Source of the DNA: a virus
Strand: one strand, 5' to 3'
IMG/VR virus record: IMGVR_UViG_3300008450_000084
Span: 1 to 43,883 of that record
Length of the DNA: 43,883 nt
Below the pieces are notes generated by a model. It was not told where the DNA came from. It searched no databases and saw only the letters and a program-made list of their open reading frames with translations. The position numbers and the translations under genes were made by a program. Below, in pieces: positions 3,098 to 24,676 of this stretch (position 1 is its first letter; every line of letters starts with the position of its first letter).

Positions 3098-3198
3098 GAA
3101 CACCTCTAACGACACCTCTGAAGGAAACCAACGGCAGGCGGAGGTGTGACGCTTTTCGGTCAGGGGATCAGCCAGACCTAGCCGGGTTTCGCAACACT

Positions 3199-8172: not shown

Positions 8173-9207
8173 TTACGGGCGGGGCATCCTGCGCATCACT
8201 GCTTGCCTTCCTGCAGGGGTAGCAAATGATGGCTGAGATGCTTCCGCCATTTCTTCGTAAGACAGTTCCTTCTGGTCGGGCTCTAGTCGGCTGCGCATGT
8301 ACTGCATAGCCCCAGCACCCATACCAATAGGAGCCGCAATAGGTGCAAGCGGCGTCAGCGAACCGACAGCACCAAGAGCAGAAAGACCAGCAAGAGTCGC
8401 ACCAGTCGTGTCGCCCTCTTCGTACATCTGCTTGGCACGAATGCCTTCTCCACCAGCAGCAGCAAGCGCCAGAGGAGGCAGTGCATATCTCGCACCCAAA
8501 GATGCAGGACCGATCATTGATTGGAATATGGCGCTGACCCTCTCAAGACCCGATGGAGGAGTACCACGCGCTATAAGGCGATCCACCAACGCTTTAGGCT
8601 CATTTGGTCCTGCTGGCCCATACATCTTGCTTAGACGTTCCGAGACCTTGCCCTGCCCCTTGGATCGCTGATATGCAGCAGATGCTTGGGGTACACCACC
8701 TATGCCTGGGCGTTCCTGCCCTGCCCAGTTACGAGCCCACTTCTCTCCACTGGTCCCTCCTTGAGGGCCTTGAGCAGTTGCTGCGCCTTGTGCAATGTTG
8801 CGCCCGATTCCTTGAAGAGCAGAGCGACTTACGTCAAGGCCAGCCTTACCCGTTCCCAGAGCAAGGCCAGCACCGCCACCGATGATCTGACCCATCCGGA
8901 CATCTTGCTCCTTCTGAGCTTGATTCATCCTTTCCTCTAAATCGCCCATGTCCGGCATGCCACTAACCGGGGCTGGAATCTCAGGGGGCTCCATAGGAGC
9001 AGTCTGTGGTGGCGCAGCTTGAGGAGCAGCACCCGGTTCTCGCGCAGGCGGAGTCCCTGGTTGCTTGGCCTTGCGCTCCATCTCAAATAGACGCTCTGCA
9101 ATTATGTTTAGTTGCTCTGGAGTCGCATCCTTGGGGGCGGTGAACCTGATGATCATCCCACTGCCGTCAGTGGCTTCCGCCTCGTACTGCTGAATTTCAG
9201 CCATCAT
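8173..9207 (-). CDS. Putative virion/ejection protein, last gene of late operon (344 aa)
   Basis: 344 residues (ATG at 9207 or 9204; GGGGG lies just upstream). The N-terminus has a short domain (EIQQYEAEATDGSGMIIRFT, then ATPEQLNIIAERLFEMER) of a type found at the beginning of some phage internal proteins. A Pro/Ala-rich linker (about 50-90) follows. The rest is glycine/alanine-rich and weakly hydrophobic (MGQIIGGGAGLALGTGKAGL; LPPLALAAAGGEG; GLSALGAVGSLTPLAPIAAP), as expected for a membrane-active internal protein ejected with DNA. No enzyme motif is seen. Its position at the distal end, after two other putative internal proteins, supports the assignment. The ATG overlaps the previous stop. 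Confidence 0.6.
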   Translation of the reverse strand: MMAEIQQYEAEATDGSGMIIRFTAPKDATPEQLNIIAERLFEMERKAKQPGTPPAREPGAAPQAAPPQTAPMEPPEIPAPVSGMPDMGDLEERMNQAQKEQDVRMGQIIGGGAGLALGTGKAGLDVSRSALQGIGRNIAQGAATAQGPQGGTSGEKWARNWAGQERPGIGGVPQASAAYQRSKGQGKVSERLSKMYGPAGPNEPKALVDRLIARGTPPSGLERVSAIFQSMIGPASLGARYALPPLALAAAGGEGIRAKQMYEEGDTTGATLAGLSALGAVGSLTPLAPIAAPIGMGAGAMQYMRSRLEPDQKELSYEEMAEASQPSFATPAGRQAVMRRMPRP

Positions 9208-10826
9208 TGACCCCCTACTGGACGAATAGTGAATCTGGGCTTACCGGATGGAGTAGCCCCAGGCTGTTGTGCAGGAGGATTGACAGAAAATGCCTTAGCA
9301 AGGTCTTGGTCGTAGTTGCTTATCAGGCTCTTGTATGTTGGCGACCGCTCAAACTGGTTGTAGTTCGCTCTCGGGTTCTGCTCTTGGTATCGGCTCCATG
9401 CTTCACCGATGTTGATGTCATGCTGCGCACGCATCGCAATCAGCTTTGCCTTTTGCATCAATACGCCTGGGCTTTGACTTATGTTTCCTCCGATATTGCG
9501 AACAATTGCTCTCTCGCCCTCAGTAATCGCGCCTTGCTTCTGCATGTACAAGATCGTGTAGGCAAGCTCCATTTCAGCCAACGTGCCAGCAGTCTTAGAA
9601 ACATTATCCAAGTCTTTTTGGCTTATGTTGGGCATAAGCTGCCGAACACTGTTCTCAAACCCGCCAAGATTTACACTGGTTGTGCCTGCCTTGATGCCTT
9701 CGTTGATCAGGTTGCCGAACGCAGAGGCGATACCTGGGCGAGAGAACATGCCAAAGCCCTGCGGGCTCTCACTCACAAGCTGTTGAACTCGATTGGCGTT
9801 AAACAGCATTGATCGTGCAGCAGCCGTATTTGTTGTTACCTGCTTTTCTCTCTCAACAGCAGTCCTAGCGCGTCCTACTGCAGTTTCTTTTTCCTCTGCG
9901 GCAGACGATTCAAGTTCTTGAGCAGTCAAGACTCTGCCAGGGCCACTTGGTGCTCCCTGCGAAGGAGCCGCGGGCTGCTCTGCAAAGGACGAGACCAAAG
10001 ACTTCTCAATCTCTCTAAGCCTTGCGGGGTTGCCGCTCATGGCTTCCCTTAAGGCATCATCGTGTTCTCTTGCCCTAGTCATAGGGACATTGAGAGTTTG
10101 ACCTTCAAGGCCTTTGATAGTCCGCAGTTGAATTGCTACCGGCGTAATGTCTGGTCTCTTGGTTCGATACAGCAAACCAGTAGCCAAGTCCACCATGCCT
10201 TCAGGAGTCTCCTGATACCGCTTGCGTTGAAGCTCCCCCAGCTTCTCGGTAATGTCAACAATGCCCTTACTCGGGTCCATCATTGCCGCCCGCAGGAGGT
10301 TCACACTGTTGGCGACATTGGGGTTGGGCGGCATGAAAGGCTCACCCTTGATGCCTTCAGTTCCCGGAGGCTGTTGAGCTACCGCCGCTTGTGCAGGAGG
10401 TGCCCCAGCCGGTGCGGCCATAGGAGTCGGCGGTTGTGCTCCAGGCTGCCCTGCAGGTTGTGGCTGTCCCGGAGTTTGTGACCCAGGTTGCGGAGGCGCT
10501 GCCCCAGGCTCCATTTGACCCATTAGGAAGCGCTGACGAGCCCTCTGTTGCTCAAGCTGCATGCCCTGCTGGGCTACGCCTAACTGAGCCTGGGCAAGTT
10601 CCTGCTCTCGCTTGAACTCTGCTTCTTCAGCGCCTCGCAGCTTTCCAGCAGCGTTTCCTAGGGCCTCTCCAAAAGAACCCGTGCGGGTAGGAGCCAAGAA
10701 GCCTTCTGCCATCGCAAGCAGAACCGGATCAAACAGCCTGTTCTTTCTTGCGTCCAAAGACTGAGTTACCCGATCAAGAGCCTCTTGGTACTTGCGCTGA
10801 TACTCTTCAAGTGTGTCAACAGCCAT
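9204..10826 (-). CDS. Putative internal virion / DNA-ejection protein (540 aa)
   Basis: A 540-residue, mainly helical protein. Residues 1-110 form a coiled-coil-like segment (LEEYQRKYQEALDRVTQSLD; EEAEFKREQELAQAQLGVAQ). Next comes a Pro/Gln/Ala/Gly-rich linker (about 110-165), a middle helical part and a long helical domain (about 330-500; FGMFSRPGIASAFGNLINEG; ISQKDLDNVSKTAGTLAEME). The ending is Pro-rich (NPPAQQPGATPSG). Long helical proteins with Gln/Ala-rich linkers, grouped next to a giant tail-end gene, are typical of podovirus ejection proteins that are packed inside the head; P22 gp7/gp16/gp20 are the functional model, not demonstrable homologues. Tightly coupled to both neighbours. 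Confidence 0.6.
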   Translation of the reverse strand: MAVDTLEEYQRKYQEALDRVTQSLDARKNRLFDPVLLAMAEGFLAPTRTGSFGEALGNAAGKLRGAEEAEFKREQELAQAQLGVAQQGMQLEQQRARQRFLMGQMEPGAAPPQPGSQTPGQPQPAGQPGAQPPTPMAAPAGAPPAQAAVAQQPPGTEGIKGEPFMPPNPNVANSVNLLRAAMMDPSKGIVDITEKLGELQRKRYQETPEGMVDLATGLLYRTKRPDITPVAIQLRTIKGLEGQTLNVPMTRAREHDDALREAMSGNPARLREIEKSLVSSFAEQPAAPSQGAPSGPGRVLTAQELESSAAEEKETAVGRARTAVEREKQVTTNTAAARSMLFNANRVQQLVSESPQGFGMFSRPGIASAFGNLINEGIKAGTTSVNLGGFENSVRQLMPNISQKDLDNVSKTAGTLAEMELAYTILYMQKQGAITEGERAIVRNIGGNISQSPGVLMQKAKLIAMRAQHDINIGEAWSRYQEQNPRANYNQFERSPTYKSLISNYDQDLAKAFSVNPPAQQPGATPSGKPRFTIRPVGGQ

Positions 10827-10838
10827 GTTTGACTCCTG

Positions 10839-11801
10839 TTAATCCCCAGGCCCACGATCTTCGTCAGCAGGAGTTGGTACTTGATACAACGTGTACAGCG
10901 AAGCCGTGTCTTGCGGAGTGGCAGTACCTGCAAACACTTTCTCCCACAGCGACTTCAGTCGATCACCAGCAGTACCTGCAGCAGCAGACCCCAAGACCCC
11001 AAGCAATCCAGTAGCGGTCGCAAGCGGAGACTGTTGATATGCACCAGCCTCCGGACCAACAAACTTCTGTTCGCTGGTAAGGGGCACTTGATAGCCACGC
11101 AACAACCCAGACACGTTGGTCGCCTGATTCAGCGGGAAGTCAAGTTTGCTTTGCTCGTACTTCTGACGTTCAGCACCTGCCTTGGTCAGAGCTTGAGCAC
11201 CCGTCAATCCGAGTTCTTGCTCCTTGCCAGCAATCTCAGCCTGCGCCCTTGATGCAGCAGTCTGGCCCGTCATCTCATCAATAGCGGCCTTCAGAGCGCC
11301 CTCATATCCCTTAGACAGAGCACCGTACTGCTGACCCGTCAGATTAGATTGAACGTCTGCTAGAGACTGTCCTAGAGCCCCCGCGTAGCGCTGGCTTCCA
11401 AGACCACCAGAACCTACAAATCCAGCCTTCAGAGAGGGAAGAAGATTGCGCTGCAGGTTCTGCTGGCTCAACCTCGCCATCTCATCCACCACGTTCGTGG
11501 TGTACGGATTCATCAGAGCATTGATGCGGTCAGGAGTGATGCCACTTGCTGCGGCAGCAGCAGTCTGACCCGCAGCAGTTAGCCCAGGCTTGTAGGCGTC
11601 AGCAGCGGTAGTAAGAGCGCCATACCCCTGCGTTTGCAGAGGGTCATACGCCGCAATGCCTTCTGCTGCAGTTCTCTTTAGAGCATCCTGCCCCGTGTTG
11701 GACAGTTGCGTCAGGTAGTTGGTGTAGTAGTCCGGCGCCGTCTGAGTCGTCGTCGTCGTCTTGGTGATATCCGGCAGCGGAGCGCCTTGGGTGATACTCA
11801 T
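10839..11801 (-). CDS. Putative internal virion / DNA-ejection protein (320 aa)
   Basis: 320 residues, helical with many Ala/Gly/Gln. The conserved-looking core INALMNPYTTNVVDEMARLS then QQNLQRNLLPSLKAGFVGSG and GSQRYAGALGQSLADVQSNL is familiar from uncharacterised proteins next to giant tail-end genes in environmental phages (memory-based). A weakly hydrophobic region near the C-terminus (ATGLLGVLGSAAAGTAG) could touch membranes. The N-terminus is Thr-rich and disordered. It lies immediately downstream of the giant gene (two-base gap) and upstream of another helical internal protein. A role in the ejected protein set is inferred. Confidence 0.6.
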   Translation of the reverse strand: MSITQGAPLPDITKTTTTTQTAPDYYTNYLTQLSNTGQDALKRTAAEGIAAYDPLQTQGYGALTTAADAYKPGLTAAGQTAAAAASGITPDRINALMNPYTTNVVDEMARLSQQNLQRNLLPSLKAGFVGSGGLGSQRYAGALGQSLADVQSNLTGQQYGALSKGYEGALKAAIDEMTGQTAASRAQAEIAGKEQELGLTGAQALTKAGAERQKYEQSKLDFPLNQATNVSGLLRGYQVPLTSEQKFVGPEAGAYQQSPLATATGLLGVLGSAAAGTAGDRLKSLWEKVFAGTATPQDTASLYTLYQVPTPADEDRGPGD

Positions 11802-11803
11802 GT

Positions 11804-14800
11804 TTAACCCCTAGCTGACTTTTGCTTGCTGGTCTTCTTGAGATACTCAAGAGGAGACTTGGCAGGCGGTGGGAGATCCTTCGGACCAGACGACCTCGCG
11901 TGAGCACGGATGGAGTGCATCATGTCGTAGAGTTTATCTGATCCAGCCTTCGTTGAGCCATTTCCTAGCGCAGCAACTACGTCCGCGGGAAAGACGAATT
12001 CACCATCGGCCAGCATCGCAGGAATGTCGTCAGACTGCCCGTCTCCCGGCCCTGTCACAGCATCCCCTCGACGGAAGTCAACTCGAGCCTTACCGGAGTG
12101 GTGAACTACGTTCAAACCACCCTTTGCATACTGGCCATATCGAGTACCCATCGCAAACAGCGGAGTAGCTAGACCACCCGCCTTGAATGCTGGAGCTTCT
12201 TCAGACTTCCTCTCTCCATACGGATCAAGCAGTTCGTCAATGCTCTGCTCTTTGCCGTATGCGTAGCGGTCGGGTTGTTCCATCGGTTGGCTTGGAGTCA
12301 TAGGTTGTTGCTGCCTTGGAGTTGGGGTGTAGTCGTTCCTCTCAACTTGAGACAAGAACGCGGCAAGGGGGCTGATGAACTTTGCGGCGCCCGATGTTTG
12401 TAATGGAGACACAGTAGGCAAAACATCAGCAGGCTTACCAGCAGCAGGCGCCAACATCTGCAAGCCACTTTGCATCCGTTTTTTTCTTGCAGCTTCTTCT
12501 GCCGCCTTTGCCGCAGCCAGTTCTTGTGCTGTTTGTGCTTGCGTCAGAGTAGCCAACTGACCAGTCAACTCAGACATTGCAGCATTTGTGGCTGCCGTCT
12601 CATCAAGACCCGCCTGGACTAATTGATCAATTCGCTCTTGCAATTGGGCGATACGAGGATCTGCAGGAGGAATTTCAGGCTCATCTATGTTTGTTTTTGT
12701 GCCTGCATCAGTCGATGTTTGAGTGTTGGTTGTCAGGTCAACCGCTGTCTGTGTATTGCTGGTTGGATCAACAGTTGTCTGTGTTCCTGTGTTTGCATCA
12801 ACTGTTGTTGTTATGCCACTAGCCGTGTCTGTGACGGTCTGAGTGTTGGCATTTGGATCAACCGTCGTTTGTACGCCCGCATTTGGGTCAACGGTTGTCT
12901 GAGTGTTTGTCGCTGCATCAACTGCGGTCTGTGTGCCTGTATTTGCATCAACAGTCGTAGTCACCCCAGTGTTGTTGTCAACACTCGTCTGCGTGTTGGC
13001 ATTCGGGTCTGTTGTTGTTTGCGTATTGGTTGTTGGGTCAACAGTCGTTTGAGTGCCAGTGTTCGCATCAACCGTTGTGGTTGTCCCCGTCGTTACGTCA
13101 GTTGCCGTCTGAGTATTTGCGTTTGGATCAACGGTTGTCTGAGTGTTTGTTGTCGGGTCAACCACAGTCTCTGTGCCAGTGGCGGCATCAACGGTAGTCG
13201 TCGTGCCAGTGCTGGTGTCAACATTTGTCTGAGTGTTTGTGTCTGGATTAACCGTTGTTGCGGTGTTCGCACTGGTATCAACAGCAGTGTTCGCATCTGG
13301 ATTGACCACTACACCAGTGTTCGTGTCTACCTCAATGCCCGTATTTGGATTTGTAGCCACACCAGTGGCAGTGTCTACCGCAACGCCAGTGTCGGTGTTA
13401 ACAACCTGATTGCCATCAACAGCAACATCTGTCTTGGTCGCCGTATTGGTTGTTGGATCAACCGAAACCGTATCTCCTGTATTAACAGGGTCAACCGTTT
13501 CAACAACTTTTACATTGCCGTCGTTTGTCTCAACAACAGCTTTTGTGCCATCGTCATTGACAGCAACAACTACTGCAGTTTGAGTGGTATCTGTTTGTGT
13601 AGCTGCATCAGTCACAGTTGTGTCTTCAACTGTGGTGGCTGTGTTGTTTGTTGAGTCAACAGTTACTGAGTCTCCAGTCGTAACACCAGAAGGCGTGTCA
13701 ACAATTGCCGTAGTCCCATCTGGAGACTCCACAATCGCCTTTGTGCCGGTGTCGTTTGTTGCGACTACGATTGCTTGATTGTCTGTAGTCAAATCAATAG
13801 CTGTATCGGCAACTGTATTGACAACAGCATCTGCCTTCGTGGCAGTGTTGGTTACAGGATCAACAGTTACGCTGTCTCCGACATTGATGTCAGGAGATGT
13901 TTGAACAACCGAAGTCTCTCCAGTAGGAGACTGAACAACCGCCAAAGTGTTGTCGTTATTGACTGCAACAACAGTTGAAGGCTCAACAGTCGGCTCAGTA
14001 GTTGGCTCAACGGATGGCGTGGTAACTGGCTCAGTAATTGTCTCTACAGGGGTTGGCTCAGTAGTCAAGACCGCAGTATTGGTCGCAGGGTCTACAGCTA
14101 CCGTATCACCAGTCGTGACACCAAAAGGCGCGTCAACAATTGCAGTGGTCCCGTCTTGGGACTCCACAATCGCCTTGGTGCCAGTTTCGTTTGTTGCGAC
14201 TACGGTGGCTTGGTTGGTAGTGACCTTATACGCAGGCGCCAATCTGGTTCCCGCCTGCGTATCAACCGTAACTGATTCTCCGAAAGTGAAACTTTCCCCA
14301 GGATTACCTGCAGCTACTTGTACGACACTGCCGTTTGCTAACGCAACCGTTGCGGTGTCTCCGTACTGGCCTACATCTACGATCTTTCCCTCAATCCGAC
14401 CAGTTGGAGCTGGGCCTGTCAGAGACGTAACCTCCCCCGTATACGGGTTGGTCATCGTTTGATTCTGAAGGTTAATCGTATATTGACCGCCGACCTTCAT
14501 CCCAGGGAATGCAGTGACAAGCGTTCTATTCCCAAATCCGTCTTGAATTACAGCGTTTTCAGCATCAACACTAAGCACCCAACCAGAAATCTGAGTAGGC
14601 GCTGCAGGCGGATTCAGTCTTAGTTCTTCCTCCCGTCTTGCTTGATCTTCTCTCTGCTTAAAAAACAAGGCCCAATCTGTTTCGTCCGTGGCCGTTCCGT
14701 CCTTGGCATCTTGACGCTTCTGGTCAATGTAGGCACTGCTGTATCCAGCAGCTTGCATTGCATTAGCCACTTGATCGAATGACTTTCCAGAAGCCAAGGC

Positions 14801-17800
14801 CTGATCAATGTACTGATTAAGTTGAGCGATGGACGTCTTATTCGGGTCTAGAGCAATTGTTGCAGGTGCTGGAGCAGGTGTCGGAGCAGGAGCAGGCGCA
14901 GGAGTTGGTGCCGCAGCCGTAACAACTGTTTTGGCAACAGGATCAACCTCAATGATGCTATCTATTGCAGTACCCGCAGGTGCGGCTACTGCGTAAATCT
15001 TCCCAGAGGAATCTTGTACGTTATATGTGCCGTTTCCGTTGCGGGAGATAACAACCGCAAGGCTTCCAGTTGTAGCCCCAAACTTCAACTCACCCGTCAA
15101 AGGATCACGAATACCAATGTCTTGCGGGCGCAACTGCACAACCGTACCCGCCTGAACTCCAGGCTCATACCTCATGGCAACACTGGACTGATCCCTTGAG
15201 TTCATCGCAACAGCGAAACCTTCGTCAGGGAAGATGCTCAAGACCTTGTATTGCTGTGTCGGTACTTGAGGTGCGGCCACACTTTGCGTTGGAGCCTGCG
15301 GGAAGAAGTCTGGACGTTTAGCCTTGGCAACATCAATCGCCCGAGTCACATCTGTTGAATCAGCCGCGTACCCAAGAGACGTAAGGCCTGACTTAACCTG
15401 ATCCAGCGTCTTGCCCGCAGACAGTTGACCAATAACGTAGCTTCCAAGATCAGCAACACTCGTCACTCCAGGCTGAACACCGACCTCTTCAGCAACGGCG
15501 ACTGAGTTTGTCAGCGCCTGCATAGCCCCAGTAGGCCCAATGCCGTCTCTTGTGTATCCAAATGAATAGAGATCCATCAAGATATCTGACGGAGTATCGC
15601 CAGACTTGTACCGATTGATAACATACGCATTCAGATCAGCTTGCGATGTAACTCTAGGATTGACTGGGTATACAGGCGCCGGAGCAGCAGCAGGCGCTAC
15701 ATATTGACCGGGTGCTGCTACAGCTTGTGAATCAATAGGCCCTGGGGCCGCAGTAGGAACAACAGTCGCCGTGCTGGTGTTGACGTTAACAATAGCCCCA
15801 GGCGCAACACTCGTACCACCCGTATCAACGATAGTCTTGGTGCCATCAGCCGTCACAACCGTGGCCGTGCCGTTAGTTGTGTTGACGCTCTGCACCACCG
15901 CGTCTGTAACAGCAGTATTGCCACCTCCAGTAATGCTGGCAGTGTTGGTAGTCTGGTCAACAGTTACAGAGTCTCCCGGATTCACGCCCCCAGGCGTACC
16001 AACGACAGCCGTAGTTCCATCTGAAAGCTCAACAACAGCCTTATCGCCACTGTCGGTTACAGCAATTACTGTCCCAGTGTTCTGCGTTGTGTCGGACGCT
16101 GCGCTATCAGCAGTAACGCCAGCCGTTATGTCCGCACCACTTGTAGTGTCAGATCCTGCCGCGTCAGCAGTAGCGCCAGTAGTAGCGCCATTAGTGGCAC
16201 CTGCAGTGTCAGCTACCGCGTCAACAACAGTTCCTACAGTAGCACCTGTAGTGTCAGTTGCCGCACCAGAGGTGGCCCCAGCAGTAGCACCTGTAGTAGC
16301 ACCTGCAGTAGCACCCGTAGTGGCGCCTGTAGTGTCAACAACAGTTCCGCTGCCTGCAGTGTCAACAACCGTACCTACAGTAGACCCAGTAGTAGCTCCA
16401 GCAGTACCTGTCGTTGCCCCTGCAGTAGAAGCAACCGTTGCGGTGTTGCTGACTTGGTTGGTGTTTACTGTGTCGCCAACCTTGACGTCACCAGTTGTTG
16501 AGACCACCCTGGTGGCGCCATCTTCACTCTTAACAGTCGCAGTGTTGTTGGCGCTATCAACAGAAACAACCTGAGAAGTCGCAAGGGACACCGTCCCACG
16601 ATTGGGATCAACATTGACTGAATCGCCTACTTTTAGGTCTGTCTCAGCTCGTACAGTTGTTGAGTTGCCTGTTTGATCAGCAACGGTTACGGTCCCATCA
16701 GGATTGACAGCAACTACACGGTTTGTCGGAGTCTTGGCAGTCAGTCCCAGGCCAACATAATCTTGAATGACTGTACGGGCTTGCTCCGCAGGAGTCTGAC
16801 CCGAGAACACATCTCCCAAAGTGATGTCATTACCCAGCGCATCGCGGCTCAGAACAATGTTGTTGTCCGTTGTGAACGAACTAGGCAACGACTCGTTTAG
16901 CGTTGCAGGCGTGAAGCCCTGATCAATCGCTACAGCGGACAGCGACCCAAGAGTAACGTTCTGGCCTTGTGCGTTTTGTCCAATTACGGCGTTCGGGTTC
17001 AGAGTGTTGAGATCAACATCTCGCGTACCACTCAACAGTTCTTGCAGAGTGACGTTCTGACCCAGCTTGTCCTTTGCGACTACCGCAGAATCAACAACAG
17101 CGCCACCAGCAAGAATAGACGCAGTAGTACCGCCTCCAAGAGACATTGCAAATATAGATTCAACATTGATTTGCTTGAGGTCATCTACGGTCATCGCCCG
17201 GTCAAGGGTGGTGATCTTCGTAGAAAGCCCTTGACCAACAGTTTCTATCCATTCACCTACCGTCTGCGCAACTGTGGCCTGCAGGTTCTTCGCCATGTAG
17301 GCTTTGATGCCGCCTGTCAGGCTAGAGGTCAAAGCGCCAAGAGTCAGTTTGTCTGCAAGAAACTCAACTGGCGTAACAACTAGCGCGTGCATCAAACCAT
17401 TCTTTATGGCCTGTGATCTTGCGTACTCTTCTGGTACGCCCTGCTTCCTGAGGGTTTCGTATGCTTCTTTTACACCTGACCCAAATGCTTCAAGCCCATC
17501 AACAATTGCGGATGAACCTGCGGCCAGAGTAGCAACTACTGGGGCAGATGCTCCACCTGTCGCAGCGATAGTACCGACTCCAATAGCCGTAGCATACGGA
17601 GCAAACTCCTGAACAATCTCTTTGCCGTTTTCTGACAGCCACCAACCAAAATTGTCTCTTGCAAGTTTTGCAAACATCAAAGGTTGATCTTTGAAGTCTG
17701 CCTTGGCAATATCACGCATCCCCGCTTCAGCGGAGGACTTTTGTTGATCCAATGACCTAGACGTCAACGACTCACCAAGTTGCACCATTGCAGCGCCAAC

Positions 17801-20800
17801 TCGGTCGTAATAGTTGTTGATGTTCCCGCCAGTAGCAGCAGCGCCGGCAGTCGCAAAGTAGCGGACTTGTTCTCCCAAGCCTTGCAAGGACAAGCCAAAC
17901 AGATTAGCTACGGCCCCAGAAACACCATCCAAGTCACCCAGCTTCTTGGTCTGCAGCTTCTTCTCAAGAGCCGCGGCTTGCTCGTTGCTGATAGCCGTTG
18001 CATTAGCCTCAACCAAACGCCTAGCTTCTGCACGGTTTTGATTGCCTACGTTATCCAGTGAGCCAGCAGGGATGTTGTAAATCTTTCCGTCGTACTGGAA
18101 CATCGTCTTGCCGTTCTGGTGGGCAAGGATGGCAGCATCAGTCTTAGATCCCGCACGGGAGCCGTCGTACAGTTCCGTAGCGGTGTAGGTGTTGTAGGTC
18201 TTCGTCTGTCCAGTCTCAGGGTTCGTCCACTCAAACGTTCTGCCTGGGCCAAGTTTTGCCCGCGCATCAGCAAACGCCTGCCCAAACGTCTTAGTCTGCT
18301 TAATCTCGTCTTTGATCGCGCCTTCTTGGGCAGGATCTAGAACCATGTAGTGCTGCTCGTCAGGCCCGACAAAGGTCGTCTTCCCGGCCTCTCTAGCGGC
18401 ATCACTTGCCGCCTTTACAGAACCGAACGTAGTCCCGTCAAAAGCCCCAGCCTGGATCGCCACAACAGGCGAAGACACCATGTGGGTCTTGCCATCAGGC
18501 CCAATGAAGTTGTTGTAGCCCTGAGCCTTAGCGGCCTCCATAGCAGACTTCATGCTGCCGAAGGTGCTGCCATCAAACGTGGTGGCTTCTCTATCTGTAT
18601 CCGCCTGAATCTGCGCAACAGCCCCTGCGTTGAGCCCCGTGTACCGCCTGATCTCATCAGGCGTCGGATCTCTAGGCTCAAGTCCTGCAGCTTCCCGTGC
18701 GCTCTTAAACGCATCAACCACTTCATCCTCAGACATGAAGCGGGCGTCCATCTGCCGAACGATGTCGTCGTACTTCTGGCCCGTGATCTTCTCAACAAAC
18801 GCAGGAGTAATGTTGTACTCCTTCATCACGTTGATGAGATCTTGATCCGTCATCTGCGGATCGTTGAACACCCTGTTCAACTCATCAAACCGCATCTCAT
18901 CAACAGCAATGTTGGCCCTGATCTGGTTGTCTAGGCCCACCTTCGCTGTAGCCTCATCCATACCTGTAAAGGTGGACAGAAGCTCCGCATCAGCATCCGT
19001 TGCGTCCTTACCAGTGATCTGCTTGTAGAACTGGCGGATCTCTTCAGGGGTAGTCGTCTGCTCGTTGATGTACTGAGCAGCAGCAGCCTTCGGGTCTTTC
19101 TGCTGGGAAAGACGGTCAACAAGCTCCTTCTGACGGTCATCCAAGCCGTAATAGCTGGCATCGCTAATGATCCCGGCCTTCTTCAGTTCGTCCAGCGCAG
19201 GGCCAGCCTTGAAGACCTTTTGCAGTTCTTGCTGGGCCTGCCCAATTGCCCATTTGACCGCGGACTCAGACAGATCACCACCATCAATACCCGAGCGCAG
19301 CATCGTCGTAATGAACGACTGTGTACGCGCATCAGCATCCTTGAACTGAGGGATCTGATTTAGGCCATATGCCAGCAAGCCTTCCTTGGCGGCATTAGCC
19401 AGCATCGCACCAGCATCAATGTCTTGGCCTTGAACCGCAGCACTGATTGACTGCTTGATTGTGCTCTTTACCGCGTCCGGAAGACTATCGAAGCCGGGAA
19501 TCTTGGCAGTGCCATAGTCAACAGCACCAGCAACCAGCGTGTTTAGGGCTGCAGTCTCAACGTCTTGCCCGAGAACAACTGCTCTTGTAGCTTGATTGGC
19601 AACATTGCTGATCAGCTTGATCCCCTCGGGATTGCTGAACATGGTCTTAGCGGTCTCACCAGCAAGTTGTCCTGCTTGAGCACCAGCCCAAGAGGCAACA
19701 GAGGACTTAACGGCGGACTCAATGTCTCCACCATTCAACACAGTGTTAATTACCGTGTTTCCGATGAAAGCGTTAGTGGCCGCAGATGCAGAAATACCCA
19801 AACCAGTCGTGATAGACCCGCCAATAACGGCTCCAATGGCGGGGTTCATGGTCACAGCCATGACGGCCAATTGCGAGAGAGCACGAAGACCATACTTGTC
19901 TTCGCCGGGGTTGTGAATGTTGGAACTTACATATTTGCCGTTGGTATCGTAAACATCCGTTCTATAAAAACCTTGTCCATATTCAGGTGCAGCGACTGAT
20001 TTTGAGTACCCACTGAAAACAGACTGGCCTGTGTCCTGTTCTGTTTGCCCAACTAAATCGTATGTCTTCTGTACCTCTGCGCCATCAAGAGTGGCGAACT
20101 CTCCAGCGTATTGTTCTGTTGGGTTACCTGACTCAACAGAAGCACCAGTAGGCTGATACCTCGACTCAAACTTTAGATTGGCAAACGGATTTGAACCCGA
20201 CGCGGCAGACGGCGCAGGCGAGGGCGCAGCGGCAGGCTGCTCTGCTACAGGTTGCGCCGCCTGTTGCGCAACGGGTTGCGGGGCCTGCTGTTGCGTCTTC
20301 TGCGCTTCAGCAACACTGCTCCCAAAGATAGGCGTCAACTCAAGAACCGCACCCTTGGCGTTCCCATAAACAGAGTTGTCGCTGATCGTGCTGTTTTGAA
20401 AGCTAGAGTTGTTTTCAGCCCAGCCGCCAATCGCGTATTGCTGCGTAGGCGTCTGCTGGTCGTCATAGATGCTATTGCCCTGGATTACGTTGTTTGATAC
20501 GTTTGAAGTCGTATGAACGCCGATGCCAGAAGCATTCGCAAAGCCTAGATAAGAAGACGACTCCTGACCGTTGTTAAAGATCGCGTTGTCTTTAATGACG
20601 GAGTTAGATACGTCCGTCAGCGAAATGCCATCTGCAGCGCAGTTGGAAATCTTGTTGCCGTAGACCTGCAGGTTCTGACCACCAAGCTCAAGACCACTGC
20701 CAGAGATATCCATCCTACGAGAGCCGTCGATCACATTGTTTGCAATCGTGACGTTCTTGCCAGTGTGATTCATGAACAGCGTAGATTCGCCGTTATTTAC

Positions 20801-21598
20801 ACAGGTGTTGTTGGAAAACTGCCCGCCATCTGGCATAAAGTAGGCGGCTGACCAGTTGTTGTCCTTAAACGTGTTATTTACCACGTTTATGTTCTTAGAT
20901 TGATATTGGCCTTCACCGCCAGCGTAAATAGCGGGGCCACCCATCTTGGTAGATTGCGGGTTCCCTGTATTTGCAAAAACAGAGTTTTGGATGGTTACGT
21001 TTTGAGAGCCACCAAGGTCAACCCCGGTATACGGGGTATTTTGAACGCCGCTGTTTGCAAAATTGACGTCAGACACATTTCTGATTTCAACAAGAGCCCG
21101 CGACCCCCTTGGATTATTGCCGCCATCAAACGTAACTCCGTTAATATTTACAGAGCTACTTTGGTGTATTACTCGCGCAAGTGGCATATCAGGAGAGTAG
21201 TTCTCCCCCGCCAAAAAAACAGTTTCCCCAGCACCGTCTCCTATAAGCGTAACATTAGACGGTATGTTCAGAGCGCTGCTAAAAGTGTATGTGCCTGCTG
21301 GGAAGTAAAAAGTGCCCCCAAGAATTAGCGCCCTGTTTAGCGCCTTAACATCCACAACTCCAGAAATGCCAAAAGCCTCCTGCACATTTACTTGCGCATC
21401 GGATGCAGTACGCGTCGCTCCCCCCTTGAACCCCATGTCATAAAAGGCATCAATATCGGAATCTGGAATACCAGCAATTGCCAGCTCATCTGGCGTGACG
21501 CTGTTCTCATTGAACCAAGCAATCCTTTGTGATCCGCTTTTTGTCGCCCAATCACTAGGCAGCATTGACGCAACATCACGAATACTTGGGTTTGCCAT
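11804..21598 (-). CDS. Giant 3264-aa multidomain virion protein: beta-helix, ejection-like middle, repeat modules
   Basis: One uninterrupted 9.8-kb frame. Residues about 1-60 form a small helical N-domain. Residues 70-425 form a right-handed beta-helix of the pectate-lyase-3/tailspike type (GTFYFPAGTYTF; NVTLIGDGAGETVF; many NNVI and DNSVYGN turns). An Ala/Pro/Gln linker follows at 430-470. Residues 560-1600 are helical and partly hydrophobic (for example YATAIGVGTIAATGG near 1340), like an ejection or pilot protein. From about 1620 to 2720 about 12 beta-barrel-like repeats are interspersed with Ala-Pro and helical linkers. About 2790-2970 holds decapeptide repeats. The C-terminus has AKGGL and DIPAMLADGEFVFPADVV, a motif I recall from other phage virion proteins. 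Probably virion-associated; a combined host-attachment and ejection role is inferred. Confidence 0.75.
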   Translation of the reverse strand: MANPSIRDVASMLPSDWATKSGSQRIAWFNENSVTPDELAIAGIPDSDIDAFYDMGFKGGATRTASDAQVNVQEAFGISGVVDVKALNRALILGGTFYFPAGTYTFSSALNIPSNVTLIGDGAGETVFLAGENYSPDMPLARVIHQSSSVNINGVTFDGGNNPRGSRALVEIRNVSDVNFANSGVQNTPYTGVDLGGSQNVTIQNSVFANTGNPQSTKMGGPAIYAGGEGQYQSKNINVVNNTFKDNNWSAAYFMPDGGQFSNNTCVNNGESTLFMNHTGKNVTIANNVIDGSRRMDISGSGLELGGQNLQVYGNKISNCAADGISLTDVSNSVIKDNAIFNNGQESSSYLGFANASGIGVHTTSNVSNNVIQGNSIYDDQQTPTQQYAIGGWAENNSSFQNSTISDNSVYGNAKGAVLELTPIFGSSVAEAQKTQQQAPQPVAQQAAQPVAEQPAAAPSPAPSAASGSNPFANLKFESRYQPTGASVESGNPTEQYAGEFATLDGAEVQKTYDLVGQTEQDTGQSVFSGYSKSVAAPEYGQGFYRTDVYDTNGKYVSSNIHNPGEDKYGLRALSQLAVMAVTMNPAIGAVIGGSITTGLGISASAATNAFIGNTVINTVLNGGDIESAVKSSVASWAGAQAGQLAGETAKTMFSNPEGIKLISNVANQATRAVVLGQDVETAALNTLVAGAVDYGTAKIPGFDSLPDAVKSTIKQSISAAVQGQDIDAGAMLANAAKEGLLAYGLNQIPQFKDADARTQSFITTMLRSGIDGGDLSESAVKWAIGQAQQELQKVFKAGPALDELKKAGIISDASYYGLDDRQKELVDRLSQQKDPKAAAAQYINEQTTTPEEIRQFYKQITGKDATDADAELLSTFTGMDEATAKVGLDNQIRANIAVDEMRFDELNRVFNDPQMTDQDLINVMKEYNITPAFVEKITGQKYDDIVRQMDARFMSEDEVVDAFKSAREAAGLEPRDPTPDEIRRYTGLNAGAVAQIQADTDREATTFDGSTFGSMKSAMEAAKAQGYNNFIGPDGKTHMVSSPVVAIQAGAFDGTTFGSVKAASDAAREAGKTTFVGPDEQHYMVLDPAQEGAIKDEIKQTKTFGQAFADARAKLGPGRTFEWTNPETGQTKTYNTYTATELYDGSRAGSKTDAAILAHQNGKTMFQYDGKIYNIPAGSLDNVGNQNRAEARRLVEANATAISNEQAAALEKKLQTKKLGDLDGVSGAVANLFGLSLQGLGEQVRYFATAGAAATGGNINNYYDRVGAAMVQLGESLTSRSLDQQKSSAEAGMRDIAKADFKDQPLMFAKLARDNFGWWLSENGKEIVQEFAPYATAIGVGTIAATGGASAPVVATLAAGSSAIVDGLEAFGSGVKEAYETLRKQGVPEEYARSQAIKNGLMHALVVTPVEFLADKLTLGALTSSLTGGIKAYMAKNLQATVAQTVGEWIETVGQGLSTKITTLDRAMTVDDLKQINVESIFAMSLGGGTTASILAGGAVVDSAVVAKDKLGQNVTLQELLSGTRDVDLNTLNPNAVIGQNAQGQNVTLGSLSAVAIDQGFTPATLNESLPSSFTTDNNIVLSRDALGNDITLGDVFSGQTPAEQARTVIQDYVGLGLTAKTPTNRVVAVNPDGTVTVADQTGNSTTVRAETDLKVGDSVNVDPNRGTVSLATSQVVSVDSANNTATVKSEDGATRVVSTTGDVKVGDTVNTNQVSNTATVASTAGATTGTAGATTGSTVGTVVDTAGSGTVVDTTGATTGATAGATTGATAGATSGAATDTTGATVGTVVDAVADTAGATNGATTGATADAAGSDTTSGADITAGVTADSAASDTTQNTGTVIAVTDSGDKAVVELSDGTTAVVGTPGGVNPGDSVTVDQTTNTASITGGGNTAVTDAVVQSVNTTNGTATVVTADGTKTIVDTGGTSVAPGAIVNVNTSTATVVPTAAPGPIDSQAVAAPGQYVAPAAAPAPVYPVNPRVTSQADLNAYVINRYKSGDTPSDILMDLYSFGYTRDGIGPTGAMQALTNSVAVAEEVGVQPGVTSVADLGSYVIGQLSAGKTLDQVKSGLTSLGYAADSTDVTRAIDVAKAKRPDFFPQAPTQSVAAPQVPTQQYKVLSIFPDEGFAVAMNSRDQSSVAMRYEPGVQAGTVVQLRPQDIGIRDPLTGELKFGATTGSLAVVISRNGNGTYNVQDSSGKIYAVAAPAGTAIDSIIEVDPVAKTVVTAAAPTPAPAPAPTPAPAPATIALDPNKTSIAQLNQYIDQALASGKSFDQVANAMQAAGYSSAYIDQKRQDAKDGTATDETDWALFFKQREDQARREEELRLNPPAAPTQISGWVLSVDAENAVIQDGFGNRTLVTAFPGMKVGGQYTINLQNQTMTNPYTGEVTSLTGPAPTGRIEGKIVDVGQYGDTATVALANGSVVQVAAGNPGESFTFGESVTVDTQAGTRLAPAYKVTTNQATVVATNETGTKAIVESQDGTTAIVDAPFGVTTGDTVAVDPATNTAVLTTEPTPVETITEPVTTPSVEPTTEPTVEPSTVVAVNNDNTLAVVQSPTGETSVVQTSPDINVGDSVTVDPVTNTATKADAVVNTVADTAIDLTTDNQAIVVATNDTGTKAIVESPDGTTAIVDTPSGVTTGDSVTVDSTNNTATTVEDTTVTDAATQTDTTQTAVVVAVNDDGTKAVVETNDGNVKVVETVDPVNTGDTVSVDPTTNTATKTDVAVDGNQVVNTDTGVAVDTATGVATNPNTGIEVDTNTGVVVNPDANTAVDTSANTATTVNPDTNTQTNVDTSTGTTTTVDAATGTETVVDPTTNTQTTVDPNANTQTATDVTTGTTTTVDANTGTQTTVDPTTNTQTTTDPNANTQTSVDNNTGVTTTVDANTGTQTAVDAATNTQTTVDPNAGVQTTVDPNANTQTVTDTASGITTTVDANTGTQTTVDPTSNTQTAVDLTTNTQTSTDAGTKTNIDEPEIPPADPRIAQLQERIDQLVQAGLDETAATNAAMSELTGQLATLTQAQTAQELAAAKAAEEAARKKRMQSGLQMLAPAAGKPADVLPTVSPLQTSGAAKFISPLAAFLSQVERNDYTPTPRQQQPMTPSQPMEQPDRYAYGKEQSIDELLDPYGERKSEEAPAFKAGGLATPLFAMGTRYGQYAKGGLNVVHHSGKARVDFRRGDAVTGPGDGQSDDIPAMLADGEFVFPADVVAALGNGSTKAGSDKLYDMMHSIRAHARSSGPKDLPPPAKSPLEYLKKTSKQKSARG
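12690..13226 (-). repeat. Tandem decapeptide repeats in the giant protein (about 17 copies)
   Basis: About 17 units of 30 bases, each encoding a variant of VDPNANTQTT, VDANTGTQTT or TDVTTGTTTT. Degenerate copies continue upstream to about 13400. The units share strong protein similarity but vary at third codon positions. Asp at position 2 and Thr/Gln at alternating positions suggest a beta-roll or an extended, disordered spacer; which is not decidable by eye. Confidence 0.85.
13430..16735 (-). repeat. About 12 dispersed beta-barrel-like repeats of about 45 residues in the giant protein
   Basis: Units follow the pattern VVAVNxDGTxAVVExxDGTT then a valine-rich strand, VxxGDxVxVDPxTNTAT. The most alike are encoded at roughly 13450-14210, with further ones toward 16735, separated by Ala/Pro-rich or helical linkers. 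The short strands with a conserved G-D turn look like small SH3/KOW-type or OB-type barrels. The fold is inference; the periodicity is seen directly. Confidence 0.75.
16140..16440 (-). repeat. Low-complexity Thr/Gly/Ala tract in the giant protein
   Basis: Short repeats built from AGCACCTGTAGT-like units encode runs such as TTGATAGATTGATAGAT and ATTGATADAAGSDTT. The tract links two of the beta-barrel-like units and is expected to be flexible. The near-identical short units could change copy number by slippage. Confidence 0.75.
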
Positions 21599-21599
21599 A

Positions 21600-21941
21600 T
21601 CAATTTACCGCAGGGTTTATCGCGCCTAGCAGAGCCTGAGCCCACTCTTGCCAGTCGTCGTAGATGTCTGTTGCTGGGATTGCTTCGTTGGTGAAGACGT
21701 CAATCGCCTTCAAGCCATTGCCCCAGAGCTTCCAGTCTGTGTTCTGGCTTGGAATCTCGAGATGATTGACAGCGTACTGTTCTGCCATCAGGCTTGCCCA
21801 AGAGTCAAAGGTGTGATACCTCGGATCATAGACAAGCGGAGAACTTCCCGCCACCCCATTCGACTCCGGGGCAAGGCCAAATGTAGCCACCAGCAGTGGC
21901 GAGAACCCAATGCCAAATAACGCTACTGAACGTGGCGTCAT
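21600..21941 (-). CDS. Hypothetical virion-operon protein (113 aa)
   Basis: 113 residues. The start region is hydrophobic (VALFGIGFSPLLVATFGLAP), followed by a polar Trp-rich part (TFDSWASLMAEQYAVNHLEI; TDWKLWGNGLKAIDVFTNEA; DIYDDWQEWAQALLGAINPA). The pattern, with one alpha-helical domain, resembles small proteins beside fibre genes in environmental phages; no function is known to me. The N-terminal hydrophobic run could be a membrane or signal segment. It overlaps the upstream repeat-protein gene by four bases and is one base from the giant gene, so it may assist or attach one of them. Confidence 0.6.
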   Translation of the reverse strand: MTPRSVALFGIGFSPLLVATFGLAPESNGVAGSSPLVYDPRYHTFDSWASLMAEQYAVNHLEIPSQNTDWKLWGNGLKAIDVFTNEAIPATDIYDDWQEWAQALLGAINPAVN

Positions 21942-23392
21942 GTCAGCCTCGTCACCACTGTGGTGAACCCGTTCGTTTCAATGGACTGAGACAACGTACC
22001 CACAAACCTGCCGTTGCGAGTCACCTGCAACGTATCCGTCAGGGCATACAGAGCCGCCAGCTCTTCAATCATCACCCCAGGATTGTCAGTCGTGTAAGTC
22101 AGACCAGCAGTTGTTTCAACAGTTATCGTCCCATTCCTAGCTTCTGCGATGGATTGAACGATGTCATCTACCGCTCTGAAGTTAGTGCCCACAGTCAACG
22201 GTGTCGAGTCAAGCCCATTGAGCTTGTATATCTGCTGCAGCAATCTGGCCTGGGCTCTGGTGATCGTGTACGTCCCAAGTTCTACCGCAGCAGAGAAGAA
22301 CTGGTTAGTGTTGACGTACAGCGACGGCAGCAGATTAACTGGCCCAGGCGCAACCGTTGGTGAATAGAAGACCTGACTGTTTACAAGCAGCGCAGGAACT
22401 AACCTTGTGTCAACAGTTGGCGAATAGAACGTGTTGGGGTTCGTGTAGAGCCCCGGATTCAGGAAACTCTGAGCAGTGACAGACGCTAAGTAGAACGTCT
22501 GGGTGTTGTTGTACCTTGCTGGATCTAAGCTGTACGTCCCAACAACCGTAGGCGTGTAGAACGTATTGCTGTTGGTGAACAGCGCAGGCAGAAGCTCATT
22601 CGAGGCCTCAACGACAGGCGAATAGAACGTCTGAGTGTTCGTGTAGAGCGAAGGCAGCAGCGTGATGTCTGTGCTGACAGTCGCGCTGTAGAACGTCTGC
22701 GAGTTGACTACAAGGCTCGGCAGCAGTTCATTTTCTGCCTGTACCGTAGCGCTGTAGAAATTCTGAGTATTCGTTACCAGCGACGGGCTAAGAGCATATG
22801 AACTCGCAACCGTTGCTGAGTAGAAGGTGTTTGTGTTTGTGTATAGCCCAGGCAGCAGCGTATTGCTGAACGTGACTGTGGGCGAATAGAACGTCTGCGT
22901 ATTGACGTACAGCGACGGCAATAGCTCAGTAAACTGGAAGACTGTAGGAGAGTAGAAGGTCTGACTATTCGTGTACAGCGATGGCAGCAGTTCGTTGCTG
23001 GCGCTAACAGTTGCCGAATAGAAGGTCTGTGTATTGGTGTAGAGAGCCGGAGCTAGATCATTGCTGACCGAGACAGTAGGCGCATAGAACGCATTGGCGT
23101 TGTCAAACCTTGCAGGCAGTAGTTCATTACTTGACGCAACTACTGGCGTGTAGAAGGTATTAGTGTTTGTGTAAAGCGCAGGCGTAAGCGTGTTGCTGGC
23201 TGCAACAGTCGCCGCGTAGAAGGTGTTTGTGTTGTCGTACCGACTAGGCTGGAGATCAACTGTTCCAGCGGTTACTGTCGGTGTGTAGAAATCATTGCTG
23301 TTAGTGAACAGCGATGGCGATAGGTTTTGTACCGCAGCATCTGCTTGGAATGCGTCACTCTGAAACGCATTACTCTGAAATGCCGCGGCCAT
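21938..23392 (-). CDS. Repeat-rich virion protein with sixteen 22-aa repeats (484 aa)
   Basis: 484 residues. The N-terminus has a short AFQSN/AFQSD/AFQAD repeat (residues 4-19). Residues 24-376 are 16 units of about 22 residues with consensus LLPSLYTNTQTFYSATV plus five variable residues. The C-terminal domain (about 380-484) reads ITRAQARLLQQIYKLNGLDS, then TVGTNFRAVDDIVQSIAEAR and repeats of IxxxTxxT. A similar C-terminal domain is, from memory, present in other phage structural proteins. A fibrous or shell-decorating role is inferred. It follows the methyltransferase and glycosyltransferase genes; its many Thr and Ser residues could be modification targets, but that is speculation. Confidence 0.7.
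   Translation of the reverse strand: MAAAFQSNAFQSDAFQADAAVQNLSPSLFTNSNDFYTPTVTAGTVDLQPSRYDNTNTFYAATVAASNTLTPALYTNTNTFYTPVVASSNELLPARFDNANAFYAPTVSVSNDLAPALYTNTQTFYSATVSASNELLPSLYTNSQTFYSPTVFQFTELLPSLYVNTQTFYSPTVTFSNTLLPGLYTNTNTFYSATVASSYALSPSLVTNTQNFYSATVQAENELLPSLVVNSQTFYSATVSTDITLLPSLYTNTQTFYSPVVEASNELLPALFTNSNTFYTPTVVGTYSLDPARYNNTQTFYLASVTAQSFLNPGLYTNPNTFYSPTVDTRLVPALLVNSQVFYSPTVAPGPVNLLPSLYVNTNQFFSAAVELGTYTITRAQARLLQQIYKLNGLDSTPLTVGTNFRAVDDIVQSIAEARNGTITVETTAGLTYTTDNPGVMIEELAALYALTDTLQVTRNGRFVGTLSQSIETNGFTTVVTRLT
22267..23323 (-). repeat. Sixteen tandem 66-base repeats
   Basis: Each unit encodes L-L-P-S-L-Y-T-N-T-Q-T-F-Y-S-A-T-V and five free residues; aromatic positions F-Y and the P and N are nearly invariant. 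The alternating hydrophobic pattern suggests a stack of short beta strands (beta-solenoid or beta-prism-like), though no fold is proven. Confidence 0.9.
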
Positions 23393-23395
23393 TGC

Positions 23396-23938
23396 TTAAT
23401 CCACTTTGGTGATTGGTTTGATCAGGGTAGCGTGAGTGTCAAGGGCTGCTTCTTTGTAGTTCTGCAGGGCGAACTGGACATGCTCAGGATGTCTAGCGCC
23501 AAGTTCTGGAGAGAACGAGTAACCCCAGGTGGCGTCGAAGTTGCAGGAGTAGCCTGCAGCATTCCACTTTTTGTCAGTGTGCGGTGCATTTGTGTCCCGC
23601 CACGCCTGCTTCAGATAGTAGTAGAACATCTCCGAAACAGGGGGCCACTGGTGCGTGAAGTCCCCATAGGCACGGTTCGAGGCCCAGTGCGGCGTGATCA
23701 CCGTGGCTTTCGCCCCTTCCTTCATGACCCGGAATGCTTCGTTCATGAAGTGAACCCGCTGCGGTGCAGTCAGGTGCTCAAGAAAATGGCTGGCGTGGAT
23801 CTCCTCCACAGTGCCGTCTTCCCAAGGCCAAGGGTCAACACCGATGTTAAGGACGACATCAACACCTTCCATAGCGTACTGATCTACGCCGAGGAATCCT
23901 TCTTTCTTCTTGCCGCCACAACCAAGGTCAAGTTTCAT
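23396..23938 (-). CDS. SAM-dependent methyltransferase-like protein
   Basis: 180 residues with the nucleotide-binding start MKLDLGCGGKKKEGFLGVDQ, the glycine-rich motif I of class I SAM-dependent methyltransferases. It continues through VDVVLNIGVDPWPWEDGTVE (acidic motif), HASHFLEHLTAPQRVHFMNE and VMKEGAKATVITPHW, typical motif II-III neighbours. The C-terminal half, rich in Trp/Tyr/His, is probably the substrate-binding part; the substrate is unknown. It lies just downstream of a glycosyltransferase gene and within the fibre gene run. The two could modify a virion glycan or the host envelope, which is inference. Its length is short but complete for the fold. Confidence 0.85.
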   Translation of the reverse strand: MKLDLGCGGKKKEGFLGVDQYAMEGVDVVLNIGVDPWPWEDGTVEEIHASHFLEHLTAPQRVHFMNEAFRVMKEGAKATVITPHWASNRAYGDFTHQWPPVSEMFYYYLKQAWRDTNAPHTDKKWNAAGYSCNFDATWGYSFSPELGARHPEHVQFALQNYKEAALDTHATLIKPITKVD

Positions 23939-23941
23939 TGA

Positions 23942-24676
23942 TCACCACACGTAGTCAGGAATTCCGCCGCGCTTGCCTTCGAGGTCATAATGTCCGACCT
24001 TCACTGAGCAATCAATAGCACAGCGGTAGCCGTACTTTCTAGCATCAGACCAGAAGTACAAATCTTGAGTAGCAACGCCTTGATCTGTCTGCGTCACAAA
24101 CCAAGGTTTACGTAGGCGCTCGTCCTTGAACATATCAAGACGCCAGACGTTGAACCCCATGCCGGTGCCACAGCACTCCACCAACCCACCGGCAGGATCA
24201 GGACGCTGGGGGCGGAAGTTGGTCACAGGGTCTTTGGGATCACCCCAGATCTGAGCACATCCCCCTGGGCCTTGCGTAAAGTACAGACCGCCAATACACG
24301 CATACTCCGGGTGGTTCTCCATCTGCATCAGGAGCTTCACGATCCCATCAGGAGGCGGAATGTTGTCGTGCTCAAGAGTGATGACGTACTTCCACTTGCT
24401 CAGGTCTGGGTGAGCCAGGATGCTCTCAATGGCAGCGCTAAACGCCTTGCCAACCTCCATGCCTACAGCCCACAGGCGTGTAAATTTGGCATTAGGAGGG
24501 GCGTAGAGGTTCATCCATGACGCCACCGCCCGCGTGGGGATCTGCCCAAAGCACGGCACGATCTGGATGCAAGACAGGTCTTTGTAAGACTTCTCCGCAG
24601 TCAGGCGAGATACGGTCTTTTCCAGATCAGCGTTGTGTGCGCCGCCGTCATAGGAGGAGATGATTTGTGGCTGCAT
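23942..24676 (-). CDS. Family-2-like glycosyltransferase
   Basis: 244 residues resembling GT-A-fold glycosyltransferases. The acidic motif YVITLEHDNIPPPDGIVKLL (E102-H-D104, in place of DxD) would bind the sugar-nucleotide metal. Later come GLVECCGTGMGFNVWRLDMF and VATQDLYFWSDARKYGYRCA (D205), then CSVKVGHYD, a common arrangement in this family. Such phage enzymes usually glycosylate DNA, host envelope or virion proteins; no DNA-modification system is visible here. It overlaps by one base the small gene before it and precedes the methyltransferase by three bases. A virion- or host-surface-directed role is inferred from the surrounding fibre genes. Confidence 0.85.
   Translation of the reverse strand: MQPQIISSYDGGAHNADLEKTVSRLTAEKSYKDLSCIQIVPCFGQIPTRAVASWMNLYAPPNAKFTRLWAVGMEVGKAFSAAIESILAHPDLSKWKYVITLEHDNIPPPDGIVKLLMQMENHPEYACIGGLYFTQGPGGCAQIWGDPKDPVTNFRPQRPDPAGGLVECCGTGMGFNVWRLDMFKDERLRKPWFVTQTDQGVATQDLYFWSDARKYGYRCAIDCSVKVGHYDLEGKRGGIPDYVW

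Follow-up and report, generated by a model that had tools for sequence, protein, structure and literature searches.

The 3264-residue protein encoded at positions 11804–21598 of the window (the whole 43,883-nucleotide stretch of viral DNA analysed here) is most likely one of the proteins that are stored in the head of this uncultured phage and pushed out ahead of the DNA. More specifically, this giant is probably the product of the first gene in a four-gene cassette for ejection (internal virion) proteins in a P22/SU10-type short-tailed phage, and has grown by inserted modules. An ejection protein enlarged by modules is the most economical account of the giant. The evidence comprises its domain order and gene slot, the conserved ends and variable interior of the family, a tape-measure-type motif and a depletion of cysteine. 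The ends and core of the giant recur in many lake phages, and the sugar-enzyme-type domain and the repeats look like optional additions of this lineage.

The giant gene and its neighbourhood

The gene is a single unbroken frame with an ATG start, running from 21598 down to 11804. The initial annotation had given these coordinates without the strand, and had named a β-helix, a helical middle, barrel repeats, a ten-residue tract and a C-terminal motif. The 3264-residue frame is indeed intact, on the minus strand, and all of the named parts are present. The whole gene was found in one further record only, L004, which is 100% identical over 29,792 bases, and the fusion therefore rests on one virus population. 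A Megablast search of phages with the giant gene gave no match. The features of the giant and its neighbours are as follows.

30780–31415, minus strand: homologue of head-to-tail adaptors (profile)
27331–29538, minus strand: homologue of tail nozzle proteins (profile)
21600–21941, minus strand: 113-residue gene; in 70 of 77 loci its homologue is the first shared gene upstream of the giant
11804–21598, minus strand: giant ORF, 3264 residues
21413–21598, minus strand: N-terminal helical module, residues 1–62 (relatives' profiles and model)
20324–21412, minus strand: right-handed parallel β-helix, residues ~63–425, a lineage-specific insert
20174–20308, minus strand: Ala/Pro/Gln-rich linker, residues ~431–475 (read by eye)
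19049–19921, minus strand: Gly/Ala-rich hydrophobic helical domain, residues 560–850 (relatives' profiles and model)
17669–19048, minus strand: helical and small α/β segment, residues 851–1310 (relatives' profiles and model)
16799–17668, minus strand: second hydrophobic helical domain, residues 1311–1600 (15 of 77 loci, L004 counted)
15749–16729, minus strand: barrel-like repeats 1–4, residues 1624–1950, with a low-complexity spacer (self-profile)
13427–15064, minus strand: barrel-like repeats 5–11, residues 2179–2724 (self-profile and Pfam)
12734–13411, minus strand: ten-residue repeat tract, residues ~2730–2955 (autocorrelation)
11807–12424, minus strand: conserved C-terminal block with a motif in common with tape-measure proteins (profiles)
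10839–11801, minus strand: 320-residue gene whose family has weak matches to a PHROG 'DNA ejection protein'; no cysteine
9204–10826, minus strand: 540-residue gene in the putative ejection cassette; lacks cysteine and has no informative family match
8173–9207, minus strand: 344-residue gene closing the putative cassette; lacks cysteine and matches no family

A whole-protein scan gave 101 confirmed stretches, and the best 80 of these yielded the 77 loci referred to below. Full-length giants number 70 among the 77 loci (62 after removal of near-copies) and range from 511 to 3264 residues; the window's protein, counted as L004, is the longest of the 70. Wherever the neighbours lie on the contig the gene order is kept: adaptor, 29539, nozzle, 21600, giant, 10839, 9204 and 8173 (the numbered genes being named by their lower coordinates in the window). 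Many of the 77 loci are incomplete contigs, and in this sample the adaptor is found in 60, gene 29539 in 67, the nozzle in 70, gene 21600 in 70, the giant in 77, gene 10839 in 75, gene 9204 in 65 and gene 8173 in 29.

The nozzle and adaptor profiles match the solved nozzles (E 2.6e-9) and adaptors (E 1e-4) of short-tailed phages, and these homologues uphold the original assignment to a short-tailed phage. The structure entry 7z47 is that of SU10. Directly downstream of the giant, 10 of the 21 members of the 10839 family that were scanned match phrog_4287, 'DNA ejection protein', weakly (best E 1.9e-4), and the 9204 and 8173 genes gave no informative PHROG match.

The arrangement resembles that of known ejection genes. 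The ejection proteins gp20–24 of SU10 (Kuravirus) and gp7, gp20 and gp16 of P22 are likewise encoded several in a row after the adaptor, nozzle and needle genes, the SU10 gene table placing gp20–24 after the nozzle and needle genes; they share with the giant cassette the lack of cysteine and the company of homologous nozzles and adaptors. They differ in being 229–1473 residues long and in having no match to the giant itself in the sequence searches made. SU10 gp20–24 are reported to be in virions and to be gone after genome release (PMC9509320). There is also a precedent for size, in that the 3,398-residue virion RNA polymerase of phage DEV has been identified as an ejection protein encoded in an operon with two others (PMC10925440, a preprint). 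The DEV/N4 polymerase and the giant each place about 3,400 residues in one chain; however, no polymerase was recognised in the giant with Pfam, PHROGs or NCBIfam, and the phages belong to different groups.

A few further window genes lie between the nozzle and the giant. Genes at 23396–24676, which by eye look methyltransferase-like and glycosyltransferase-like, are present at this place in one of the 77 loci, that of the same virus. The gene at 21938–23392 encodes a 484-residue protein built of a repeated 'LYTNTNTFYSPTV'-like unit, has homologues in 4 of the 77 loci and gave a weak PHROG tape-measure match (E 0.0013). Elsewhere, 32898–35933 and 24840–26903 encode two long Gly/Thr/Ser-rich repeat proteins with an adhesin- or fibre-like look; PHROGs gave no match for the former and one weak family of unknown function for the latter.

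The C-terminal motif and the scarcity of cysteine

The C-terminal ~200 residues of the giant are present in 77/77 loci, and a strict pattern for the motif within them is found in 75 of the 77 family proteins. A scan with the C-terminal alignment gave at least 541 confirmed stretches, from which 80 loci were kept. When the whole chain was scanned against PHROGs no match was obtained at E ≤ 1; the C-terminal block alone, however, matches several PHROG tape-measure families towards their C-termini (best E 1.8e-5), which indicates that the whole-chain scan had concealed the short motif. The C-terminal motif noticed at the outset is real. Similar motifs are found in tape-measure proteins of PHROG families 6090, 25241, 3547 and others, and in those of Arthrobacter phages, and lie towards the C-terminal part of several of these profiles. 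The giant's phage differs from the tape-measure phages in carrying short-tail nozzle and adaptor genes, and the family's length varies from 511 to 3264 residues; among the window genes covered with PHROGs (21 of 40), none matched a family carrying the name tail tube or major tail protein. That a short-tailed phage carries a tape-measure-type motif supports, at the level of sequence, a relationship between tape measures and ejection proteins.

Four annotated phages carry the same motif as the giant: Caulobacter phage GB2A (gp065c), Phage DSL-LC04 (annotated 'tail tape measure'), pelagiphage HTVC027P (gp82) and Planktothrix phage Pag-Yong1 (UMO76003). In each the counterpart lies behind a nozzle-like gene (in Pag-Yong1 by annotation only) and is followed by two or three cysteine-free genes. 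These counterparts have just 294–759 residues, and in the sequence search their similarity to the giant is confined to the motif. For the cluster of Caulobacter relatives, the authors' annotation (PMC11053796) includes a tail tape-measure protein, and internal virion proteins are not listed. The shortest relatives (294–531 residues) look like a Gly/Ala-rich hydrophobic segment joined to the C-terminal motif. In phage HTVC104P (6144–7445 of locus L089) the tape-measure-type motif occurs in a gene between the portal and capsid genes; the motif is thus not bound to one slot, and its role may be a broader one in internal docking.

The second mark of the cassette is the scarcity of cysteine. The 77 giants contain 61 cysteines in 119,800 residues (0.51 per 1000 residues), with 44 of the 62 non-redundant full-length giants having none and the other 18 carrying 1–6, and the three families that follow (10839, 9204 and 8173) have 0 in 74,436 residues. 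In the nozzle, 29539, adaptor and 21600 families the rate is 4.3–10.1 per 1000. The loci are related, so that these family counts are not independent. Within the window, residues 321–3264 of the giant and the three downstream genes (4148 residues together) contain 0 cysteines against 13.7 expected from the rate in 17 other putative virion genes, which were chosen by hand. A similar bias is seen in the T7, P22 and SU10 controls, where 10 of 11 ejection proteins lack cysteine as opposed to 5 of 25 other virion proteins; this set was also hand-chosen, with T7 gp13, which is labelled an internal virion protein and has 3 cysteines, placed among the 25, and P22 gp16 counted as an ejection protein though its record label does not say so.

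The mark is an empirical one, derived here rather than taken from a published criterion, and it is not specific, since scaffolds, needles and adhesin-like genes also lack cysteine (the 5 of 25 controls, and families 21938, 24840 and 26907). In ctpbd312 (locus L082) the rule is reversed: the giant's counterpart (20074–21993) has 36 cysteines in 639 residues and the next gene (21997–23235) 33 in 412. Searches of titles and abstracts, mostly without subscription journals, returned nothing on the absence of cysteine in ejection proteins and nothing on the giant's gene family, and neither 'cysteine' nor 'Cys' appears in the review PMC8954989. Should the scarcity hold in a larger survey, it could aid the annotation of ejection genes.

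The β-helix and the exchangeable interior

The assignment of residues 70–425 as a β-helix is supported by matches to Pfam Beta_helix (PF13229, E 1.2e-12) and NCBIfam para_beta_helix (E 1.5e-4), and by a single-sequence structural model (mean pLDDT 58.5, pTM 0.64). In VIA-align 2, residues ~60–440 of the model align with right-handed β-helix proteins at Z 26.6–32.3 among the matches listed. The PfbA adhesin, the A-modules of the AlgE4 and AlgE6 epimerases, and the Dettilon and Sf6 tailspikes all share the fold at Z 28–32, yet are just 13–22% identical to the giant. The best fold neighbours thus include an adhesin, bacterial C5-epimerases and tailspikes within a few Z units of one another, and for this reason the fold leaves the function of the β-helix unsettled. 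DPHE is a motif of the AlgE enzymes, and it is absent from the giant's β-helix. None of the known head-binding domains of tailspikes could be identified in the giant. The only two cysteines of the chain, at positions 266 and 320, both lie inside this domain.

Of 104 related records, a single one (L004) has the β-helix within the giant gene, and it is the same virus; the 104 include some near-duplicates and many fragments, and in several fragments the contig begins within the giant, which leaves its N-terminus out of view. PF13229 scored above its cut-off in two of the records, L004 and L077, in the latter within a 341-residue frame away from the giant, and a sub-threshold match in the L021 record lies in another gene, upstream. 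Among 56 family members searched with Pfam, the window's protein included, it alone has the Beta_helix match. Searches with exact eight-residue patterns, which find close relatives only, recovered β-helix homologues from the same virus alone among viral contigs and none among genome contigs; plasmids gave none at E ≤ 1e-5, a PDB sequence search gave no match, and the one phage match was a weak one to a Raoultella phage (25.9% identity, E 4e-4). As judged from these comparisons, the β-helix is a lineage-specific insert, absent from near relatives whose nozzle proteins are 89–92% identical. The N-terminal module (residues 1–62) was found among the 77 loci only in L004, L005 and L026. Both L005 and L026 have the module and lack the β-helix, and Ala-Pro-Thr-Pro linkers fill the same slot in both.

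The middle of the chain (~560–1600) was originally described as helical and hydrophobic. Its predicted model is mostly helical, and two Gly/Ala-rich hydrophobic stretches (578–616 and 1328–1369) confirm the description; with a mean pLDDT of 61 and a pTM of 0.27, the model is usable for secondary structure only. A crude rule for such hydrophobic stretches selects 48 of 69 giants; in the nozzle family it selects 21 of 59 proteins, and some proteins of other families fit it too. Residues 560–700 are present in nine of the 77 loci and 700–850 in seven, L004 being counted in both. The PDB gave no match to the middle by sequence, and none by fold at E ≤ 0.001. In BFVD the fold search matched one uncharacterised phage protein at E 5.4e-4, and BFVD entries named polyvalent-associated, vRNAP, tape measure or internal virion protein appeared only at E 0.04 or worse. 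Neither the middle nor the barrels matched annotated phages at E ≤ 1e-3. A toxin or an ordinary enzyme domain, which had been raised as an alternative identity for the middle, gained no support, residues 560–1600 giving no match in Pfam, PHROGs or NCBIfam.

The barrel-like repeats are likewise real, though an iterated self-profile counts 11 (at 1624–1950 and 2179–2724) rather than the 'about 12' first estimated. They match the OB-type Pfam family Prot_ATP_ID_OB_C, the best stretch being 2543–2587 (E 1.6e-7). The decapeptide tract that follows stands out clearly, its identity at a lag of ten residues being 0.45, above all 500 shuffles (mean 0.18, maximum 0.26).

Comparison with near relatives shows the giant's interior to be exchangeable. 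L005, whose nozzle is 91% identical to that of the window, keeps residues 545–1622 at 76% identity and 2897–3260 at 69%, and shows no match to the β-helix or to most of the barrel region. In L013, with an 89% identical nozzle, BLAST matches only residues 827–1055 (30%) and the C-terminus (79%), and profiles additionally detect the 850–1050 and 1310–1600 pieces. Across the 56 members searched with Pfam, collagen was found in 4, RTX repeats in 2, CBM_14 in 1, and coiled-coil-like and dockerin modules in a few members each; in PHROGs, four relatives matched nothing beyond weak families whose function is either unknown or unlikely.

These distributions bear directly on the initial proposal that one chain joins a receptor-binding spike to an ejection core. 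The ejection-like chain stands, by its slot, its cysteine depletion and its tape-measure-type C-terminal motif, and so does the tailspike-type fold. The identification of the β-helix as the receptor-binding spike is not supported: it is a lineage-specific insert, its fold matches include epimerases and an adhesin, and the window has another gene (36147–36914) with weak tail-fibre matches as well as other repeat genes that look adhesin-like by eye. With the β-helix in 1 of 104 records, and residues 545–1622 kept without it in L005, a receptor-binding role is unsupported.

Proposed ejection, its alternatives and its implications

We infer a location for the giant in the virion, its ejection and refolding, and any role for the β-helix, from the likenesses described above. 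The chain would be packaged in the head together with the three following proteins, its C-terminal block would dock it to the portal or nozzle, and it would exit ahead of the DNA, partly unfolded. The hydrophobic helices could then help to build a conduit through the envelope, and the β-helix and barrels would refold in or at the envelope, there to bind or process glycan or to serve as spacers. The family chain would have been enlarged by exchangeable modules, which in this virus are the β-helix, extra helical domains, barrel repeats and the ten-residue tract. Several points weaken the ejection reading. A stable β-helix is ill suited to passage through a narrow channel; the collagen, RTX and CBM_14 modules of some relatives would be at home in an external fibre; the Caulobacter phages carry a tape-measure annotation; and the middle has neither a family match nor a PDB fold match at E ≤ 0.001. 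Further points are the lack of informative matches for the 9204 and 8173 genes, the poor specificity of both the cysteine mark and the hydrophobicity rule, the cysteines in 18 of 62 giants and in the ctpbd312 counterpart, and the different slot of the motif in HTVC104P.

An external tail fibre or spike, with the C-terminal block seated on the nozzle and the chain reaching outward to a β-helix tip that binds or cuts surface glycan, is an unlikely alternative. The giant's repeat-rich, extended make-up would fit it, as would the several tailspikes among the matches to its β-helix fold and the collagen, RTX and CBM modules mentioned above. Set against these are the rarity of the β-helix in this gene (1/104 records, and absent from near relatives), the tape-measure-type motif at the C-terminus, the cysteine-poor block in common with the ejection-type genes downstream, and the separate gene at 36147–36914 with weak tail-fibre matches.

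Less probable still is a precursor from which cleavage, either post-synthetic or in the course of assembly, would release a β-helix part and an ejection part that act apart. Low-complexity linkers do lie at the module borders, and according to the record note of P22 gp7 a host protease removes its 20 N-terminal residues; however, Pfam, PHROGs and NCBIfam revealed no protease domain in the giant, and nothing in the sequence demands cleavage. That the β-helix was joined from another gene during contig assembly is very improbable: the fusion is known from a single population and no other family record shows it, but the reading frame is kept at both β-helix borders, the GC content of the insert (48.3%) is close to that of its neighbours (48.9–53.4%), and two records of different length, which may not be independent assemblies, carry the β-helix identically.

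If the enlarged ejection protein is the right account, one gene slot shows an internal virion protein growing from a few hundred to more than 3000 residues by means of modules, and the β-helix, a fold of phage spikes and glycan enzymes, sits in a class of proteins that pass through the portal. Three things set the giant apart: how extensively its modules turn over, its tape-measure-type end and the presence of a β-helix in such a chain. A more tentative extension, which we regard as possible rather than likely, is that the slot serves as a cargo platform, with widespread lake phages inserting folded domains into a tape-measure-like ejection chassis, such that lineage-specific glycan-active, adhesive or structural domains are delivered into the host envelope with the DNA. 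The C-terminal motif would then mark a docking part common to the tape measures of siphophages and the ejection proteins of podophages. Domain swapping among ejection proteins has been described in a review (PMC8954989).
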